Source: a virus
Strand: one strand, 5' to 3'
Length of the DNA stretch: 42,352 bases
IMG/VR virus record: IMGVR_UViG_3300038549_000029
Span: 1 to 42,352 of that record
Part shown: positions 20,648 through 38,627 of the stretch, in pieces
Position numbering within the stretch: position 1 is the stretch's first letter
How the letters are laid out: every line of letters starts with the position of its first letter
Position numbers and translations under genes: made by a program
The notes under the pieces: model-generated
What the model saw: only the letters and a program-made list of their open reading frames with translations
What the model was told of the DNA's origin: nothing
The model's database searches: none

Positions 20648-21005
20648 GGCAATATTTACCTTCACAGTTGGTGAGGGTATGCAAAAAGTTTACGTTTCCG
20701 TAGGAGAATACAGGGATGGAAAACCAGGAGAATTGTGGCTTGAGTCAAACAAAGAGGGAACGTGGACACGTGATATTCTGCATGCACTGGCACTTTCAAT
20801 CTCTCTGGGGCTACAACACGGCGTCACCTGGGAGCAGTTTGCCCATACATACCGGCATTTAGAGATGGAATCCGATACAGTCCGTGAAATTTTTAGACGC
20901 ATAGGTGAAGAGTATGGAGCTCCGACCGTTTCCAGATCAGCAGCAATTAATCGAACTACTGCAGGACTCGGCCCGGCGCGGCAACAAGAGGATACTGGCA
21001 TTTAG
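20622..21005 (+). CDS. TSCPD-domain-like protein
   Basis: ATG 20622 has GAGAGG upstream. The 127-residue product contains FTFTVGEGMQKVYVSVGEYRDGKPGELWLES, then ALALSISLGLQHGVTWEQFAH (quoted in part). This is the pattern of the TSCPD domain found at the C-terminus of class II ribonucleotide reductases and as a stand-alone phage protein. The catalytic reductase itself is absent, so the role is unclear. The gene overlaps the helicase start by about 90 bp. Confidence 0.6.
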   Translation: MRQKLPNRRAIFTFTVGEGMQKVYVSVGEYRDGKPGELWLESNKEGTWTRDILHALALSISLGLQHGVTWEQFAHTYRHLEMESDTVREIFRRIGEEYGAPTVSRSAAINRTTAGLGPARQQEDTGI

Positions 21006-23382
21006 TGGGACAGGCAGCGGCAAGAGTGAGATCGTGATTTTGCTTGCGCAACAGGCCATCGCCAAGGGAAACCGTGTGGCCTTTGTTGACAACCGGATTC
21101 AACGCACTACCCAGTTCTGTCAACGCTTAGAGAAGTATGGATTCCTTGATTACGGAGTCATGCAGGGGGAAAACTCTCGCAATCTCAGCGCTCCACTCCT
21201 GGTGTGCTCAATCGATACCGTGCGCTCCCGTGGTGGGGTGCCGGATGATATCAAGATCATCTTTGTGGACGAGTGTTTCACTCCAGACACAGAAATCCTT
21301 ACAGAAAACGGGTGGGTCAAATTTGCAGATTTATCTGAAGAAAAAGTCGCGCAATGGTCTTGTAATGATGGAATAGCTTTTGTTGACCCAATTGAAAAAA
21401 TAGTCAGATACCACGATGGAGAAATGGTGCGTTTATGGTCGGATAAGCTGATAGATGTAACTATGACGCCAAACCATGAATTAGTTGTCGAGCATAATGG
21501 AGAAATTAGAAAAATAAAAGCAAAAAACATGGTTTCTTCCAATTATAATCATATGTTTACATCTAGCTATGGTGATTCTAATCACGAAGCTGATCCCAGG
21601 GTGGAATTGACACCATTAGAAAGGCTAGCTATAGCGTTTCAGGCAGATGGCAGTTATCACACAACTAGGCAAGATGGGTCTAGAACTGTCTCATTCTCAT
21701 TCGTTAAATCCAGAAAGATTGAGAGGCTATTCGAAATATGTCTGGATGGAGGGTTTAGATGCCATGAAGTAAGTGATAGCAAAGGTGATCGGAGGAGATT
21801 TTTAGTTAACGTCGGTCATTCCTTAGTATCAAAATACTTATCAGAATCAATGCCAAAATTTGAAAATTTAAGTCGAACTAAAGCAATGGCTATAATAAAT
21901 GAAATGGTAGAATGGGATGGGTCCAAAGTAAACAAGAAAGGATTGTATTATTATTCATCCAAATACAAAGGTAATTGCGATTATTATCAAATAGTCTCAG
22001 TTTTGGCTGGGTTAAAAGCTAGACAAACGGTTCAAATAGATAATAGATCGAAATCTTTTAGTGATATATATAGACTTTTTATTGCGAAAACAAATAAATT
22101 TTCGACACAAAAAGTTAAAAAAGAAACGACCAAATACACAGGTAATGTATACTGCGTGAGAGTCCCAAGTGGAAATATTATCATCAAAAGCAAAAATGGA
22201 AACACTTTAGTGACTGGAAATTGCCATTACTCTGCCAATACCAGCATATATGAGCAGCTTTTTAAGGATCGATTTGTCATCGGCCTGACCGGCTCGCCAT
22301 GGGCCAAACTTGGAAGGCACGTCGAATCTTTAGGCGGCCCTCTCTATCAAGACCTCGTTTACTGCAAGACCATGGAGGAGTTGTTTGCCTCTGGCCGTCT
22401 CCTTGAGCCTATCGTCTGGAGCTTAGAAGCTCCCGATATGACCGGTGTGAAAACTGTGATACGGCACGGCGAAAAGGGCTATGACGAGGTTGAAGGCGCA
22501 AAACGATTCGCAGGACTCACTGGTGACGTCATCGAAAATTACCTCAAGTATGCTCCTGGCAAACAGGCACTTGCTTTCTCATTCGACATCGAATCCTCTC
22601 TACGTCTCCGTGATGCCTTCCTGCAGTCTGGCATAAAGGCTGAACACGTCGACTACCACGCGAAAGACACGGATCGAAACGAGCTTTACGACGCATTCCG
22701 GGCAAAACAGTTCCAGGTGTTATGCAACGTTGAGCTACTTGGATGCGGCGCCGACTTCCCGATGTGCTCAGTCGTTATTCTTAACAAGGCATACAAATCG
22801 AAGAATGCGCTGGCCCAAGTCGTTGGGCGCCCGTTGCGTGTTGACCCTGATGACCCCAACAAGGAAGCAATCATAATTGACCACGGCAAATCACTGCGAA
22901 CACTTGGCCTCCCATGGGAATGGCCCATCGAGCTCATTGACGGCAAACCCAAGAAATCAGGCTCCAGTAAAGAAGAAAAACCGGAGCCAAAGGAGCCTTT
23001 CGAATGTCCACAGTGCAAGCGCCTCAGGTCAAAGAAGAGTCAGCCATGCCCATCATGTGGACACCGCATCTACCTACAAGAAAAAGAGGAGCGCCAGACA
23101 GGTGAGGCGCATAGACTAGGCAAAAAAACACAGAAGGTCAAGATTTCTGTGCAACTGCATAATATGCCCAAACAGCTTTTCTACTCACAACTGATTGAGT
23201 ATGCCAGGGCCATGGGGTATAAAGATGGTTGGGCAGCCGTCCACTTCAAAAAGATACATGGCGATTGGCCCAGCGGTCTCAAAAATGTAGGGTGTGAGAT
23301 TGATCCGGTAGTCGCAAGGTGGGTTAGGAGTGAGCAAATCAGATGGGCACACGCAAGGAGGTTTAAGTATGAGCAGGTATAA
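20914..23382 (+). CDS. SF2 DNA helicase interrupted by an intein
   Basis: I prefer ATG 20914 (GGTGAAGAG upstream) over GTG 20905. The precursor has 822 residues: helicase N part (1-120), intein (121-436), helicase C part. Motifs: LRPFPDQQQLIELL (Q-like), GTGSGKS (Walker A), VDE|CH (motif II, split by the intein), LTGSPW (motif III), QVVGRPLRVDP (motif VI). A zinc ribbon CPQC...CPSC follows the core near residue 695. After splicing the 506-residue enzyme would unwind DNA in phage replication or recombination. The primase follows nearby. Confidence 0.85.
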   Translation: MELRPFPDQQQLIELLQDSARRGNKRILAFSGTGSGKSEIVILLAQQAIAKGNRVAFVDNRIQRTTQFCQRLEKYGFLDYGVMQGENSRNLSAPLLVCSIDTVRSRGGVPDDIKIIFVDECFTPDTEILTENGWVKFADLSEEKVAQWSCNDGIAFVDPIEKIVRYHDGEMVRLWSDKLIDVTMTPNHELVVEHNGEIRKIKAKNMVSSNYNHMFTSSYGDSNHEADPRVELTPLERLAIAFQADGSYHTTRQDGSRTVSFSFVKSRKIERLFEICLDGGFRCHEVSDSKGDRRRFLVNVGHSLVSKYLSESMPKFENLSRTKAMAIINEMVEWDGSKVNKKGLYYYSSKYKGNCDYYQIVSVLAGLKARQTVQIDNRSKSFSDIYRLFIAKTNKFSTQKVKKETTKYTGNVYCVRVPSGNIIIKSKNGNTLVTGNCHYSANTSIYEQLFKDRFVIGLTGSPWAKLGRHVESLGGPLYQDLVYCKTMEELFASGRLLEPIVWSLEAPDMTGVKTVIRHGEKGYDEVEGAKRFAGLTGDVIENYLKYAPGKQALAFSFDIESSLRLRDAFLQSGIKAEHVDYHAKDTDRNELYDAFRAKQFQVLCNVELLGCGADFPMCSVVILNKAYKSKNALAQVVGRPLRVDPDDPNKEAIIIDHGKSLRTLGLPWEWPIELIDGKPKKSGSSKEEKPEPKEPFECPQCKRLRSKKSQPCPSCGHRIYLQEKEERQTGEAHRLGKKTQKVKISVQLHNMPKQLFYSQLIEYARAMGYKDGWAAVHFKKIHGDWPSGLKNVGCEIDPVVARWVRSEQIRWAHARRFKYEQV
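21274..22221 (+). mobile_element. Intein 1 (316 aa) in helicase motif II, LAGLIDADG-type
   Basis: The first residue is Cys (CFTPDTEILTENGW, block A). Block B is VTMTPNHELVVEH. A LAGLIDADG-like pair is visible: LERLAIAFQADGSY and KAMAIINEMVEWDGSK. Block F/G reads VYCVRVPSG...TLVTGN with the extein +1 Cys next. The penultimate residue is Gly, not the usual His. Removal rejoins VDE and CHYS, restoring a DECH box. The DNA is clearly more A/T-rich than the flanks, a sign of separate origin. Confidence 0.9.
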
Positions 23383-33428: not shown

Positions 33429-34916
33429 ATGGCACACCAGGGCGGTAAAGACTTCGAGCCAGGCATCATCGACAGAGTAAGTGGCGCTGTTTCATGGCTT
33501 GTGACTGGCAAAGTCCCGGCATGGTTCGGCCCCAATCAGCCATTGGCACCTGTGGCGCCCAAGGAAGTGGAAGGTCGGGCATTCGACTATCCCGTAGGCG
33601 TCAACCTCAACTACATGCCCAGGTCTGAACAGTCGGAATCCGGAGTCAGCTTTGCCACCCTGCGAGCAATAGCCGATCCTGCCCTAGGTGGTCTCGATCT
33701 GGTGCGCCTGGCAGTAGAGACGCGCAAAGACCAGATGGAAGCCCAGAGGTGGACAATCCGTGGATTGGACGGTAAGGATGCAGGCGACCGTGGCAAGAAG
33801 GCTATGGGACTCTTTCGCAGGCCTGATGGCGTCCACACATTCCGGCAATGGGCAAGGCAGCTCTGGGAAGACCTGCTGGTCATCGACGCGCCATCGGTCT
33901 ACATTGACCGTGGCATGCCTGAGATCATCGACGGTGGCAGCATAAAGCTGCTTTCCGATCCAAACGGCAGGCGCCCTATCCCACCACTCCCTGCCTTCCA
34001 ACATGTGCTCAAAGGGATGCCAGCGGTCGACTACACCGCTGATCAGTTGATCTACTTCCCACGTAACCTACGCAGTAATAAGTTTTATGGCATGAGCCCG
34101 GTTGAGCAGTTGATTAACATCATCCAACTGGCCCTCAAGCGGCAGCTCAGCTTGACAGCGGTCTACACTGCCGGGAATGTTCCTGAACACCTCATTGGTG
34201 TGCCTGAGAGCTGGAATCCAAAGCAAATTGAATTGGCCCAGCAATACATGGACGCGCTAATGCAGGGCAACATCGAGGCCAAGCGTAAAGCCCTGTTCGT
34301 TCCTGGCGGGATGCAGCCGATCAAACTGGGTGACCCAACCATGCATGAAGGCTTTGACGAATGGCTTGCCCGCTTGATCTGCTGGTGTTTCTCGATCCCA
34401 CCCACTGCGCTCGTGAGACAGGTAAACCGGGCTACCGCAGAGACTGCCCAGATCCAGGCGCAGCAAGAAGGCCTCGAACCGCTCAAGGAGTGGTGGAAGG
34501 ACTTCATGAACGAGATCTTGGTCAAGTGCTACGGAATAACGGATCTCGAATTCGGGTGGCTTGATGCTGAGATTGTCAACCCACAGATCAAAGTCCAGAC
34601 CGCATCCATGGCGTGCGGCGGGTCAGCGTTTATGACCAAGGATGAGGTAAGGACGACGTTCTACGGGCTTGATCCACTCACACCGGAGCAAAAGGAAGAG
34701 TTGGCGCCTAAGCCTGTCGATCCATTTGGTGGGATGTTTGGTGTGGGTCAAGAGCAACCCAAGAAAGACGGGGAGGACATTCCAAAGGAAGAACCGGAAG
34801 AGAAGATAGCCAAGCGGAGGTTACTTCAAGCCGATCAACCGGAACGGAAAGGCTGCACGTGTGGCAATTGCCAAAATACAAGCAGCAAGCAAAAAATACC
34901 TAGGCAGTATCCGTGA
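33429..34916 (+). CDS. Portal protein
   Basis: The 495-residue protein starts at ATG 33429 (GAGG upstream). Typical portal segments are FATLRAIADPALGGLDLVRLAVETRKDQM, RQWARQLWEDLLVIDAPSVYIDR, LIYFPRNLRSNKFYGMSPVEQLI and CWCFSIPPTALV followed by AETAQIQAQQEGLEPL (all quoted in part). It forms the dodecameric ring for DNA entry. The C-terminus is charged and ends CTCGNCQNTSS. The next gene (MuF-like) begins 56 bp inside it. Confidence 0.9.
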   Translation: MAHQGGKDFEPGIIDRVSGAVSWLVTGKVPAWFGPNQPLAPVAPKEVEGRAFDYPVGVNLNYMPRSEQSESGVSFATLRAIADPALGGLDLVRLAVETRKDQMEAQRWTIRGLDGKDAGDRGKKAMGLFRRPDGVHTFRQWARQLWEDLLVIDAPSVYIDRGMPEIIDGGSIKLLSDPNGRRPIPPLPAFQHVLKGMPAVDYTADQLIYFPRNLRSNKFYGMSPVEQLINIIQLALKRQLSLTAVYTAGNVPEHLIGVPESWNPKQIELAQQYMDALMQGNIEAKRKALFVPGGMQPIKLGDPTMHEGFDEWLARLICWCFSIPPTALVRQVNRATAETAQIQAQQEGLEPLKEWWKDFMNEILVKCYGITDLEFGWLDAEIVNPQIKVQTASMACGGSAFMTKDEVRTTFYGLDPLTPEQKEELAPKPVDPFGGMFGVGQEQPKKDGEDIPKEEPEEKIAKRRLLQADQPERKGCTCGNCQNTSSKQKIPRQYP

Positions 34917-36363
34917 CCACCTTCTGAGCTCAGTCGAGAAGGCAGACACGCCAGATTACAGCAGGCTCGTTGAACTTCTTGCCCAGTTGCCAGAGGAAGA
35001 ACGTAGGCAGTATTTGCAGGCGATAGAGGATGCAATCTCAACCATGGCAGAATTCGGGGTAGAGGCTGCGTTAAAACAGATTGAGAATCTATTACCATCC
35101 GGCTCAGATCCATTCAAGCAAGCCAACGAGGAGGCTATTGCCTGGGCAGAGGAAAGATCTGCCTGGCTGGTGACGAAGATAGATGAAACCACCAGAGAGA
35201 ACATCCAGACGCTGGTAGAAAATGCCGAGAAGGATGGATTATCGAACCAAGAATTGGCCCAACAACTCAGGGATTCTGAGGCCTTCTCTGATGCCAGGGC
35301 CGAGATGATAGCCAGAACTGAGACGGCCATGGCCGATGTGCAGGGTAACCTTGCAGGGTGGAAGGCAAGTGGGGTTGTGGAGGGCAAGCAATTCCTGGCA
35401 GCGCCAGATTGCTGCGACGAGTGCCAGGCCATGGCGGATGTTGTAGTAGGGCTGGACGAAGAATTCCCAGAGGGAGACCCCCCCATCCATCCTAACTGCT
35501 TCCTACCAGGAACTTTGGTATCTACCGTTGGTTGGGTTTCGTCTGTCTTTGAACGTTGGTATGAAGGGGAAATCGTTCGCATTCGAATCGAGGGAAATCC
35601 AGACATCACCTGCACGCCCAATCACCCGATATTGACGCAGCGCGGATGGATTCCCGCCGCACAACTCACAGAACGCGACTACCTGTTCAAGGTGTCTAGG
35701 GAAATGTTTAGTTCCGTTAATCCAGAGAATAATCACGTTAACGCCTTGATTGAGGAGGTATCTAATACGATCTCCATGTCTGGCCGCGTGTCTACCACCC
35801 GCATGCCATCCTCCACCGAAGATTTCCACGGCGATGGAACCATTGATCAGGAAATCAACATTGTAAGGGCCGACAGCGGCTTGAGGGCGGATACCAGAAA
35901 ACACGGAGGAAAGCATACCAAAGAAGGCAACTTCTTGATCACTGATTCCGATTTGGAGGCCTTCGCGCGAGAGTGTAATTGCGCTCCTATGAGTTTGGGA
36001 TTGTCTGGAACCACGAACTGCAGCATGAGCTGCTTTGACACGAGCAAGCCTAGCTTCAGGAGTGGACCTGGCAGCTTCTGCGATATGCGCGGCGGAACTA
36101 TCTCGGATATGAAGCCCGAAACGATTAAATGTCTTGCGGATGGTGGAGCTATGGCAACCAAGGCTCTTAGCAATGTCAACACTGCTCTCTCCAGCCTCAT
36201 AACGACGGTAAATATCAAGGAGTTGATCGTCGGTGAACAATTTTCTGGACATGTCTATAACCTCGAAACGGAGGGTGGGTGGTATGCAGCCAATGATATT
36301 ATAGCACACAACTGTCGATGTGACGTGATCGCAGTTATTAAAGAACAGGAGGGTGAAGAATGA
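34861..36363 (+). CDS. MuF / SPP1 gp7-like head protein interrupted by an intein
   Basis: The GTG start at 34861 overlaps the portal end. The 500-residue precursor has a helical N part (residues 1-212; LVENAEKDGLSNQELAQQLRD and SDARAEMIARTETAMADVQGNLAGW typical of the MuF family, quoted in part), the Cys pair CCDECQAM and the family ending DPPIHPN|CRCDV, which is split by a 272-residue intein (213-484). After splicing the mature protein would be 228 residues. MuF-like proteins attach to the portal and are packaged or assist head morphogenesis. The stop overlaps the next gene by ATGA. Confidence 0.88.
   Translation: MAIAKIQAASKKYLGSIRDHLLSSVEKADTPDYSRLVELLAQLPEEERRQYLQAIEDAISTMAEFGVEAALKQIENLLPSGSDPFKQANEEAIAWAEERSAWLVTKIDETTRENIQTLVENAEKDGLSNQELAQQLRDSEAFSDARAEMIARTETAMADVQGNLAGWKASGVVEGKQFLAAPDCCDECQAMADVVVGLDEEFPEGDPPIHPNCFLPGTLVSTVGWVSSVFERWYEGEIVRIRIEGNPDITCTPNHPILTQRGWIPAAQLTERDYLFKVSREMFSSVNPENNHVNALIEEVSNTISMSGRVSTTRMPSSTEDFHGDGTIDQEINIVRADSGLRADTRKHGGKHTKEGNFLITDSDLEAFARECNCAPMSLGLSGTTNCSMSCFDTSKPSFRSGPGSFCDMRGGTISDMKPETIKCLADGGAMATKALSNVNTALSSLITTVNIKELIVGEQFSGHVYNLETEGGWYAANDIIAHNCRCDVIAVIKEQEGEE
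35503..36252 (-). CDS. Antisense homing endonuclease nested in intein 2 (HTH plus Vsr-like)
   Basis: The 249-residue ORF runs opposite to the intein and is wholly contained in it. ATG 36252 has GAGGT seven bases upstream and an extended -10 (TGCTATAAT) 46 bases upstream. Residues about 5-46 form an HTH (DIYRRYEAGESSVDIAKSLG, CHSSTIRKTFNRFGL). Residues about 103-180 give a Vsr/EDxHD-like nuclease core: QEVAFF (E107), YNVDFLING (D133), SIAVEIFGGGWH (E143, H150), RHGDRIRYLLNQG (D161) and VNVIILWIN. Vsr-type homing endonucleases with an N-terminal HTH are known beside fractured/split inteins, which fits. The open frame extends to 36309 without a better start. Expression is not shown. Confidence 0.78.
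   Translation of the reverse strand: MSRKLFTDDQLLDIYRRYEAGESSVDIAKSLGCHSSTIRKTFNRFGLHIRDSSAAHIAEAARSTPEARLARVKAAHAAVRGSRQSQTHRSAITLSREGLQIGISDQEVAFFGMLSSVFSGIRPQAAVGPYNVDFLINGSIAVEIFGGGWHAGGRHAARHGDRIRYLLNQGVNVIILWINGTKHFPRHLEQVVAFCELCGGNPSALRQYRVIGRAGDVWISLDSNANDFPFIPTFKDRRNPTNGRYQSSW
36298..36306 (-). promoter_or_regulatory. Extended -10 promoter for the antisense endonuclease
   Basis: Minus strand: TGC (36306-36304) then TATAAT (36303-36298). It lies within the codons of intein block G (D-I-I-A). The predicted start near 36291 gives a leader of about 40 nt with the Shine-Dalgarno site before ATG 36252. No good -35 box. Confidence 0.55.
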
Positions 36364-36563
36364 GCTCGATAGTCAAGACCAAAGACGGGCGCGAGATAGA
36401 TTTTGACAAGCTCCAGATCAAGATTGTCAACAACCCAGATGGGACAATTGCCTACATGTGGGTTGAAACAGATCAGGGCTTTAGGTATAAATATACAATG
36501 ACTTACGACGGGGATGGGAATCCGCTTACCCTTGGTGGCACCGGCGGATGGGAGCCATTCTAA
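36360..36563 (+). CDS. Small beta-rich protein (67 aa)
   Basis: Overlaps the MuF stop by ATGA; GGAGGGTG upstream. Product MSSIVKTKDGREIDFDKLQI, then KIVNNPDGTIAYMWVETDQG and FRYKYTMTYDGDGNPLTLGG. Alternating strands. No family recognised. Confidence 0.6.
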   Translation: MSSIVKTKDGREIDFDKLQIKIVNNPDGTIAYMWVETDQGFRYKYTMTYDGDGNPLTLGGTGGWEPF

Positions 36564-36784
36564 TGCGCTGGCGTGTGGCATACGTCAAGGTAAAGAGCGC
36601 ACTAACCAAGCTGCGCCGAAAGTGGATACGTGATAGACTTGGCAGGAAGTTTTTGCGCAGGACGAAACGGATGGTGTGGAAAGTGCCCATCGTAGCAATC
36701 CACTGGGTGAAATGGCGCATTAAGAGACACGAACGGGAAACCAGATACAAGCGTGAGCGCAGGCGGATGTATGGACCTCGGTAG
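36563..36784 (+). CDS. Extremely basic small protein (73 aa)
   Basis: Starts in a TAATG overlap at 36563. About 40% of residues are Arg or Lys (for example LTKLRRKWIRDRLGRKFLRR and KRHERETRYKRERRRMYG), with Trp scattered. It lies between MuF and fibre genes. It may bind nucleic acid or the acidic scaffold; no family is recognised. Confidence 0.55.
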   Translation: MRWRVAYVKVKSALTKLRRKWIRDRLGRKFLRRTKRMVWKVPIVAIHWVKWRIKRHERETRYKRERRRMYGPR

Positions 36785-38627
36785 GCTGATTGCCCTAATA
36801 CGTGTCTTTGGCTACAAAGGAGCCCAAGGGCCTCCAGGGCCACAAGGGCCTGCCGGTGCAGACGGCGAAGACGCAACCATGGAAGTTGGGACAGTCACCA
36901 AGATCGCGCCCGGCGGCGTCCCAACTGTGGACAACTCCGGAACAGAGATTCACGCAATTTGGGACTTCGGGCTTGTGACCGGGGACACCGGGGCTCAGGG
37001 CCTAAAAGGTGATCAAGGCGATAAGGGTGATCAAGGTGATCCTGGACCGCAGGGCCTTCAGGGCGATAAAGGGGACAAAGGAGACCAGGGCGACAAAGGC
37101 GATACTGGCGACAAAGGAGACCAGGGCGACCCTGGCCCGCAAGGTCTGAAAGGCGACAAGGGTGATCAAGGCGATCAAGGGCCACAAGGATTAAAGGGTG
37201 ACAAAGGGGACACTGGTGATCAAGGAATCCAAGGCATCCCTGGTCCTGCGCCATCAGGCACAGCCAACCAGGTATTAGCGACACCAGACGGAACCGATGG
37301 TGTTTCTTCTTTGCGGTCATTGGTCAAGTCAGATCTTCCGTCTTTGTCATCGTCAGATTTGTCGGACGGGCCATGTGTGCCATATCCATACTCTGTTGCC
37401 ACCTATACCAGCGCAGATTGGACTGGCGGGAATGTGACATATGTGCCTCTGTCTGGGAATCTTCAGACCTATATCGACAATGCATCGGCTGGCGACACAT
37501 TAATCCTAGCCGCTGGAACATATACCAGGAATCGTTTAGCCATAGATAAGGCCATCAACATCGTCGGGCAAGGCCGGAAGGACACTGTTGTTAATGTAGT
37601 TGTCACATTGGACACTCCACGTGGAGCATTCGAGTTTTCCGCTAGCGATATCCACATCAGAAGCCTGTCGATGATTTGTGACGACTTGTTTATTGATGAC
37701 CCCTGCTTTTTGACCGTTTCACCAAACTTAACTGGTCTAATTGTAGAGGATGTATATATAAGGGCGAAGTGCAACGACGCTGGCAGCCCTGCCGTCGAGG
37801 TTTTAAACTCAGACCTTGACATGATCGATTGTGAAATTTATAGCGGGATACTAAACGCCATATCTGCGTGGCCGATTGGAGTGAAGGCCTATAACGATAG
37901 CAGCGCGTCCACAAACAACGTCGTAAATCTATACAATTGTAAAATTACAGTAGAATCGCCACTTGGCTGGCTCGGTGGAGCCCACGGGGTGGAGTGCTAC
38001 GGCGGTAGCTCGTCCAAAACCATGACAGTCAATCTGTATGGCAGCTCTGTTATCGCAACTGCTGATTCATTGTGTGTTGGCCTATTTAACTACGGAGGAG
38101 CCAGGTCAATAATCAATGCGTATCATTGTGACATAAATGCGGTTACATATGATGTTTATTGTGGTGCATCTGGCGTTGTGAACCTTTATGATACAGTGTT
38201 GGTAAACAATACTGTCAATGGGACTGTGACATACAGGGCCGCTGTTAATGCTGGGTTGGGTATATTCAGCACATCAATAAACACCCCTAGAATAGCCAAT
38301 TTAACAACCAATGGTTTAATCGAAACCACTGGAGGGAACGGGACACTTGGGGTAAGGACAACTGTTTATCAGACAGCGTATGCAATCCTATCTGCACTTG
38401 GTGAATTGGCGGACGATGCCGGGTATCTCGAAAACGATGGCGCGGGAAACCTATCATGGGGTTCGTCGCCTGGCGGTGACGATAATTGGAATCAAACCGA
38501 GTATATACTGACAAAGGACCGGACGATAGAGGCCGGTAAATGTGTTATCATTGTTGGGCCGCTGCAGACGAACGGAAATACGCTGACGACAGAGAGTGGT
38601 GGTATCCTTTACACATTGAGAGGGTGA
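36771..38627 (+). CDS. Collagen-like / beta-helix fibre protein
   Basis: ATG 36771 is chosen within the end of the previous gene; the Shine-Dalgarno site is weak (GGCGG). The 618-residue protein has collagen-like Gly-X-Y runs (residues about 17-31 and 74-165: GPPGPQGPAG, GDKGDQGDPGPQGLQ). It then has DLPSLSSSDLSD, and residues about 215-510 are a right-handed beta-helix (LQTYIDNASAGDTLILAAGTY as entry, repeating IxVxN rungs). The end is an Ig-like segment. The collagen stalk would trimerise and the helix would bind or cut a polysaccharide. Confidence 0.8.
   Translation: MDLGRLIALIRVFGYKGAQGPPGPQGPAGADGEDATMEVGTVTKIAPGGVPTVDNSGTEIHAIWDFGLVTGDTGAQGLKGDQGDKGDQGDPGPQGLQGDKGDKGDQGDKGDTGDKGDQGDPGPQGLKGDKGDQGDQGPQGLKGDKGDTGDQGIQGIPGPAPSGTANQVLATPDGTDGVSSLRSLVKSDLPSLSSSDLSDGPCVPYPYSVATYTSADWTGGNVTYVPLSGNLQTYIDNASAGDTLILAAGTYTRNRLAIDKAINIVGQGRKDTVVNVVVTLDTPRGAFEFSASDIHIRSLSMICDDLFIDDPCFLTVSPNLTGLIVEDVYIRAKCNDAGSPAVEVLNSDLDMIDCEIYSGILNAISAWPIGVKAYNDSSASTNNVVNLYNCKITVESPLGWLGGAHGVECYGGSSSKTMTVNLYGSSVIATADSLCVGLFNYGGARSIINAYHCDINAVTYDVYCGASGVVNLYDTVLVNNTVNGTVTYRAAVNAGLGIFSTSINTPRIANLTTNGLIETTGGNGTLGVRTTVYQTAYAILSALGELADDAGYLENDGAGNLSWGSSPGGDDNWNQTEYILTKDRTIEAGKCVIIVGPLQTNGNTLTTESGGILYTLRG

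Follow-up and report, generated by a model that had tools for sequence, protein, structure and literature searches.

The locus analyzed here raises the question of whether the two functions of a mobile intein—protein splicing and endonuclease-driven mobility—can be encoded on opposite strands of the same bases. Conventional inteins carry their endonuclease, a LAGLIDADG or HNH domain, in frame with the Hint splicing domain. In a virus sequence of 42,352 nucleotides (IMG/VR record IMGVR_UViG_3300038549_000029, hereafter the window), an earlier note had instead pointed to an intein in a MuF-like head protein, whose sense strand would lack any endonuclease motif and whose minus strand would encode a nuclease. 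The features of the sense strand are the following:

34861 to 36363, plus strand: MuF-like minor capsid (head morphogenesis) gene that carries the intein (Phage_Mu_F 2e-11; PHROG head protein 1e-51)
35497 to 36312, plus strand: intein of 272 aa with Cys1, block B TPNH, block F GHVYNLE, and C-terminal HN
35896 to 36147, plus strand: sense linker joining the halves of the splicing domain (intein residues 134–217), mostly disordered as predicted by AF2

A portal gene (33429–34916) precedes the MuF-like gene, and directly downstream of the MuF region a collagen-like Gly-X-Y repeat protein is encoded (36753–38627, plus strand), which is probably a tail or fibre component. The insertion is located between HPN and CRC (...PPIHPN^CRCDVI...). 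Its splicing motifs, as read from the residues, are complete—C1, TPNH, AHN, and C+1—and C1, H43, and N272 are invariant among 96 relatives. The Pfam profile Intein_splicing matches the MuF sense protein at 4e-8 and the intein alone at 1e-8, the latter with 35.6 bits and thus marginally below the Pfam cut-off of 35.8; further profile matches are to intein_Nterm/NF011418. For the model of the sense intein, the best Foldseek matches are the RadA, RecA, and GyrA inteins, with a probability of 1.00 for several of them at E values of only 0.01–0.06. Judged by Cys1, TPNH, HN, and C+1 and by the Phage_Mu_F and Intein_splicing matches, 35497–36312 represents a complete intein within a minor capsid gene of MuF type, as had been proposed, and its motifs suggest that it would splice. 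The sense strand is also devoid of an endonuclease motif as claimed: Pfam finds no nuclease domain in the sense frame of the MuF gene, and the layout is hence not the conventional one with an in-frame endonuclease. In the AF2 model, both ends of the intein reach pLDDT values above 92, with values below 50 at residues 134–160 and 172–217; this linker faces the helix-turn-helix (HTH) and linker part of the antisense gene described below.

An element with an antisense endonuclease gene might also be read as a group I intron—nuclear rDNA group I introns with antisense homing endonuclease genes (HEGs) are known (PMC9548176)—or as a split-intein "fractured gene," instead of a contiguous intein. The sense frame, however, is uninterrupted and bears the full splicing motifs, and Rfam gives no intron match on either strand of 34861–36700. 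Since 34861–36363 is one continuous ORF, the layout of a split intein is absent as well, and we give this reading practically no weight. The sense element is hence treated as a contiguous intein in the following.

On the minus strand of this intein, one frame runs without a stop from the right intein border at 36312 to a stop codon at 35503–35505. It lies in register with the sense frame, so that antisense and sense codons pair one to one as reverse complements. The features of this strand are:

35503 to 36252, minus strand: putative antisense homing-endonuclease gene of 249 aa, its stop at 35503–35505 (open frame, homologs, codon-position test, pN/pS)
36250 to 36252, minus strand: antisense start ATG, lying opposite the block-F His codon CAT of the sense frame
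36260 to 36264, minus strand: Shine–Dalgarno-like GAGGT, 7 nt before the ATG, opposite sense AAC-CTC (N-L, block F)
36121 to 36231, minus strand: helix-turn-helix, residues 8–44 of the antisense protein (HTH_38 2e-4, HTH_23 5e-4; AF2 helices 8–19, 24–31, and 35–44)
35590 to 35952, minus strand: Vsr/EDxHD-like nuclease domain, residues 101–221 of the antisense protein, with E107, D133, E143, H150, and R162 (structure and profile matches)

Most likely, translation would start at the ATG at 36252, which is preceded by a GAGGT that is conserved in relatives. The antisense protein would thus begin about 60 nt inside the right intein border. The earlier statement that the frame reaches to within 3–6 bases of both borders is therefore right for the open frame, which is unbroken from 36312 to its stop, and has to be given up for the start of the protein.

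An in-register frame could also be a mirror image: only the sense intein would be coding, and similarity and openness of the antisense frame would reflect conserved sense codons. The phase is indeed exact, conserved sense codons do yield conserved antisense codons, and some sense positions of the intein middle are conserved, like the motif FHGDG, which mirrors the antisense catalytic strand AVEIF. However, synonymous codon choice keeps the antisense ribosome site and start. At 79 non-redundant loci, the block-F histidine is encoded by CAT in 64 and by CAC in 15 cases versus 171 : 257 in the exteins (40% CAT; P = 1e-11), and the leucine opposite the Shine–Dalgarno sequence is CTC in 65/79 versus 501/2075 extein Leu codons (24%; P = 3e-26).

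The openness of the frame points in the same direction. In the in-register phase, antisense stops arise only from sense TTA, CTA, and TCA. For the window alone, 8.4 antisense stops are expected from the Leu/Ser codon usage of the gene itself and none is seen (P about 8e-5); over 106 non-redundant loci about 580 are expected, again with none seen. Opposite the antisense ORF, stop-making codons account for 0/2535 Leu and 0/2331 Ser codons, versus 248/2075 and 150/1304 in the exteins (12% each). As the antisense ORFs were picked as stop-free stretches, the weight of this test rests on the regularity of the openness. A second intein of the window, at 21274–22221 (plus strand), bears 14–24 stops in each antisense frame and hence serves as internal control; together with the codon-usage expectation, it rules out a chance open frame. 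This second intein resides in the helicase gene 20905–23382 at helicase motif II (DE^C...GN^CH) and shows the ordinary layout; its sense strand may bear a LAGLIDADG-like motif (LERLAIAFQADGSY), which was spotted by eye and has no Pfam match.

The substitution pattern allows for a separation of the two frames. For 47 disjoint pairs, the differences at sense positions 1/2/3 distribute as.46/.22/.32 in the intein middle,.33/.20/.48 in the N-block,.24/.21/.54 in the C-block, and.30/.28/.42 in the extein; middle and extein differ at P = 7e-80, and 10/10 close pairs agree. Substitutions in the middle thus favour sense position 1, which is antisense position 3, whereas those in the extein and at the intein ends favour sense position 3. 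On the C-terminal side, this switch coincides with the antisense start codon; toward the N terminus, a mixed zone covers sense codons 25–64, which probably matter for both products. About 60 residues at the end of the antisense ORF face the N-terminal splicing blocks, and since substitutions there follow mainly the sense frame, this C-terminal tail may be passive. Pooled over close pairs, pN/pS of the intein middle is 0.27 in the antisense versus 0.78 in the sense frame. Likewise, the same DNA aligned as protein scores higher in antisense than in sense in 600/600 random pairs (medians 279 vs 105). The codon-position, pN/pS, and alignment-score tests refute the mirror image, whose probability we regard as negligible. 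Judged by these patterns, the antisense frame is a real gene under selection.

What kind of protein this gene would encode can be appreciated from models and profiles. The AlphaFold model of the antisense protein has a pLDDT of 90.8, and VIA-align aligns it best with Vsr (1cw0, Z 11.4), NGO0050 (3hrl, Z 10.9), and I-Bth0305I (3r3p, Z 10.4), followed by two mitoribosomal proteins (Z 9.8 and 9.1). Foldseek alone yields no E value below 0.001 for this model, with I-Bth0305I as best match (0.04). A search of PDB sequences with the single antisense protein of the window returned nothing relevant; the family profile matches 3hrl at 6e-6 and 3r3p at 1.7e-5. Among 106 antisense proteins, 91 match PF18741 (REase_MTES_1575), 24 match DUF559, and many match an HTH family, which together with the known nuclease fold of the model is a further point against the mirror image. 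At least two HTH units are present in some members; multiple DNA-binding modules are frequent among phage homing endonucleases (PMC3943268). Y130, N131, D133, E143, and R162 are invariant in alignment A2. In the realigned subset A5, D133 is invariant, E143 nearly so, and E143, E107, and H150 are each present at 90% or more, with H150 being lost in some Gordonia and Pseudomonas members. As far as the model and the profiles tell, the antisense protein has a Vsr/EDxHD-like nuclease fold of the PD-(D/E)xK type. Hence, the earlier assignment of an HTH plus a Vsr/EDxHD-like nuclease to the minus strand holds, and the comparison with profiles of Vsr-like nucleases brought no refutation.

The arrangement is not confined to the window. 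A first genome scan for relatives gave no matches. Relatives of the antisense protein were located at 215 loci beyond the window—in phages, IMG/VR, and bacterial genomes of many phyla, with genome matches from Firmicutes, Bacteroidota, Actinomycetota, Chloroflexota, Cyanobacteria, Pseudomonadota, and others. Each of these loci has at least one intein half on the opposite strand with few exceptions to both halves being present, and loci with a single half are taken to be contig ends. In all 207 loci having both halves, the window among them, the antisense frame is in register with the N-terminal block. Homologous inteins with stop-filled antisense frames would have spoken against the earlier claim; the frame is intact in 129/130 and 76/77 testable loci (205/207), with the nuclease residues named above for alignment A2 being invariant. 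Free-standing or same-strand relatives were absent among the loci fetched and classified (IMG/VR, species genomes, phages, plasmids), and "always antisense" covers these loci, which are a part of all matches listed. By tblastn, the antisense protein matches at least 47 phage records, the listed matches falling under head morphogenesis, minor capsid, MuF, capsid maturation protease, and hypothetical genes; in 15/15 opened records the match is antisense to a MuF-type gene. These counts are lower bounds, as an intact antisense gene is also present in Salmonella phage CTH7, which is absent from the matches listed. In members missed by the MuF profile, the host gene is Phage_Mu_F, VG15, or Phage_min_cap2 wherever Pfam recognises the capsid protein.

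Some members bear peculiarities of their own. In Mycobacterium phage Sejanus (L003), the intein precedes CTIDGKTRP instead of following the usual HPN^CRC, which suggests a second insertion site. In Salmonella phage vB_StyS-sam (L224, 1910–2311, minus strand), a fragment of the antisense endonuclease is found in GenBank as hypothetical ORF43; in the other opened phage records of the family, the antisense gene is unannotated. L159, L164, and L170 show extra intein-like N-terminal blocks a few kb from the antisense-nuclease intein (e.g., L159 7961–8059), possibly further inteins in neighbouring genes.

Homing genes commonly decay, and the frame in the window might accordingly be the remnant of a once-active antisense endonuclease. 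Decay is seen in the locus L171 and possibly in L037: at 3806–4387 of L171, the nuclease gene bears a nonsense codon and an internal deletion, while the sense intein is open with 194 residues. Such a loss of the nuclease with retention of the intein is as expected if the two functions are separable, and L171 marks a natural step toward a mini-intein. On the contrary, nearly all testable copies are intact, and the window copy retains all conserved nuclease residues, the start, and the Shine–Dalgarno sequence, which makes a remnant quite improbable here.

Traces of mobility are found in relatives. In Gordonia Vividuovirus, the site PHEVIN^CRCTML is empty in Shivanishola and occupied by a 316-residue intein in Angelicage and a 275-residue intein in Kewpiedoll; the latter two inteins are 53% identical in DNA, with flanks that are 93–97% identical. 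In Salmonella Jerseyvirus, the site is empty in SP_4 and intein-bearing in BPS11Q3. The Salmonella phages sam and VSe101 carry identical 816-nt inteins, with a downstream extein that differs at 28/315 positions. The vacant sites, the occupation of one site by unrelated inteins, and the sharing of identical inteins by otherwise diverged genes indicate mobility: in the Gordonia and Salmonella relatives, closely related alleles either bear or lack the element, and the sequences point to horizontal transfer.

A second type of nuclease appears at the same MuF site in the Gordonia phages Thing3 and Barsten (L141/L143 pair), which carry a third, different intein. Its in-register antisense frame reads MKLDPVAAAYVAAFIDGEGTVTV... 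and is LAGLIDADG-like. The ORF matches I-MsoI at E = 4e-4 and Pfam LAGLIDADG_3 at only 0.26, as well as sense-strand phage genes annotated as endonuclease at 7e-7 and 4e-5, so that we assign it to the LAGLIDADG family with moderate confidence. Differences between Thing3 and Barsten at sense positions 1/2/3 amount to 30/1/7 in the antisense stretch and 4/1/26 in the extein—a clear sign, in the substitutions, of purifying selection on antisense coding. A Shine–Dalgarno sequence is not evident for the Thing3 ORF, and an IMG/VR scan found no further LAGLIDADG-type relatives. As this ORF shows the same substitution signature, the antisense-nested architecture probably arose twice.

A real antisense gene need not serve homing. 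It might be a regulator, a restriction/defence nuclease, or a repair nuclease that is merely housed in the intein, given that repair and restriction are further roles of Vsr and MTES_1575/DUF559-like nucleases and that HTH proteins regulate. Yet, at the loci classified, the gene is found only inside inteins; its presence or absence concerns one codon of the host gene, and transfer occurs at the level of the intein. Moreover, an unrelated LAGLIDADG-like ORF fills the same niche, and the closest solved relatives include a homing endonuclease. A role other than homing hence appears unlikely.

The best explanation, which we hold with considerable confidence, is a mobile intein that carries its mobility gene within itself, on the opposite strand. 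Translation of the sense strand would yield a MuF precursor; from this, the intein would excise itself by means of the splicing (Hint) domain that its two terminal parts form, its middle serving as a mere open-frame linker. Transcription of the other strand would give rise to the HTH plus Vsr/EDxHD-like endonuclease, with its start and Shine–Dalgarno sequence inside the reverse complement of block F. During co-infection, this nuclease might cleave MuF alleles that lack the intein, at the HPN^CRC codons or close to them; repair with the intein-bearing copy as template would insert the element into the cut allele. The codon-aligned phase is workable because a stop can arise in the antisense frame only where the sense frame has Leu TTA/CTA or Ser TCA, and for each of these a synonymous codon is always available. 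Capsid genes belong to the late genes. An in-frame fused nuclease would thus appear late, whereas an antisense gene could have its own timing; the position on the opposite strand may in this way free the nuclease from the late structural-gene programme. We infer that the antisense protein is expressed and acts in homing. What counts against this explanation is that a promoter/terminator scan of 35300–36900 gave no site and, for the sigma-70-like type of promoter that it covered, no candidate on either strand, which leaves antisense transcription unexplained.

Several known systems resemble parts of this arrangement. Like conventional homing inteins, the element combines splicing at a conserved site of a conserved gene with a linked endonuclease and empty alleles; unlike in these, the nuclease lies outside the spliced protein, on the opposite strand, with its own start and ribosome site. 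The "fractured genes" of Dassa et al. (2009) are reportedly split inteins with a free-standing Vsr-like endonuclease in a separate ORF between the halves. They would share with the window an intein plus a separately translated endonuclease, said to be of the same Vsr-like family, but the window intein is contiguous and fully overlaps the endonuclease gene. I-Bth0305I, an EDxHD homing endonuclease, and Vsr share the fold of the nuclease domain and the arrangement of the active site, but are encoded by ordinary sense genes (intron-encoded or for bacterial repair). Group I introns with antisense HEGs, such as that of I-DsqI at Didymium rDNA L2066, come close in having the HEG antisense within a self-splicing element (PMC9548176). 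There, however, the HEG sits in a loop of a non-coding ribozyme RNA and the other strand need not code, whereas in the window the same bases have to be protein-coding on both strands. Finally, insertions of the ShiLan type are mobile in a phage protein gene, with an endonuclease out of frame with the host ORF; these are HNH endonucleases on the same strand in a shifted frame without a splicing domain, as opposed to an opposite-strand, in-register gene with a splicing domain in the window (PMC11855218). An antisense endonuclease in an intein was not found described in the open-access literature. Within this literature, the earlier remark that no system of this form has been described is hence correct, and we call the arrangement an undescribed architecture of mobile inteins. 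That it was missed so far is probably due to annotation dropping ORFs that overlap a longer gene on the opposite strand.

A broader reading is reasonably probable, if less so than that of the window itself: antisense-nested inteins would be a general, repeatedly evolved class of selfish elements with unrelated splicing and endonuclease folds written codon over codon, at least two endonuclease families (Vsr/EDxHD-like and LAGLIDADG-like) would have entered inteins antisense, and an endonuclease nested in a late capsid gene could, through this arrangement, differ from that gene in its time of expression.

Inteins are classed as large (with in-frame endonuclease), mini, or split. The antisense-nested intein would be a fourth intein architecture, present in hundreds of phages and prophages, and it suggests that every intein classed as "mini" or lacking an endonuclease should be searched for antisense ORFs. 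In-register dual coding of two strands is seldom this clean: on one side, selection changes sharply from sense to antisense, which could be of use for studying the origin of overlapping genes. In addition, the family is a source of new candidate nucleases specific for a conserved site in a capsid gene, as well as of contiguous inteins whose middle tolerates large change.
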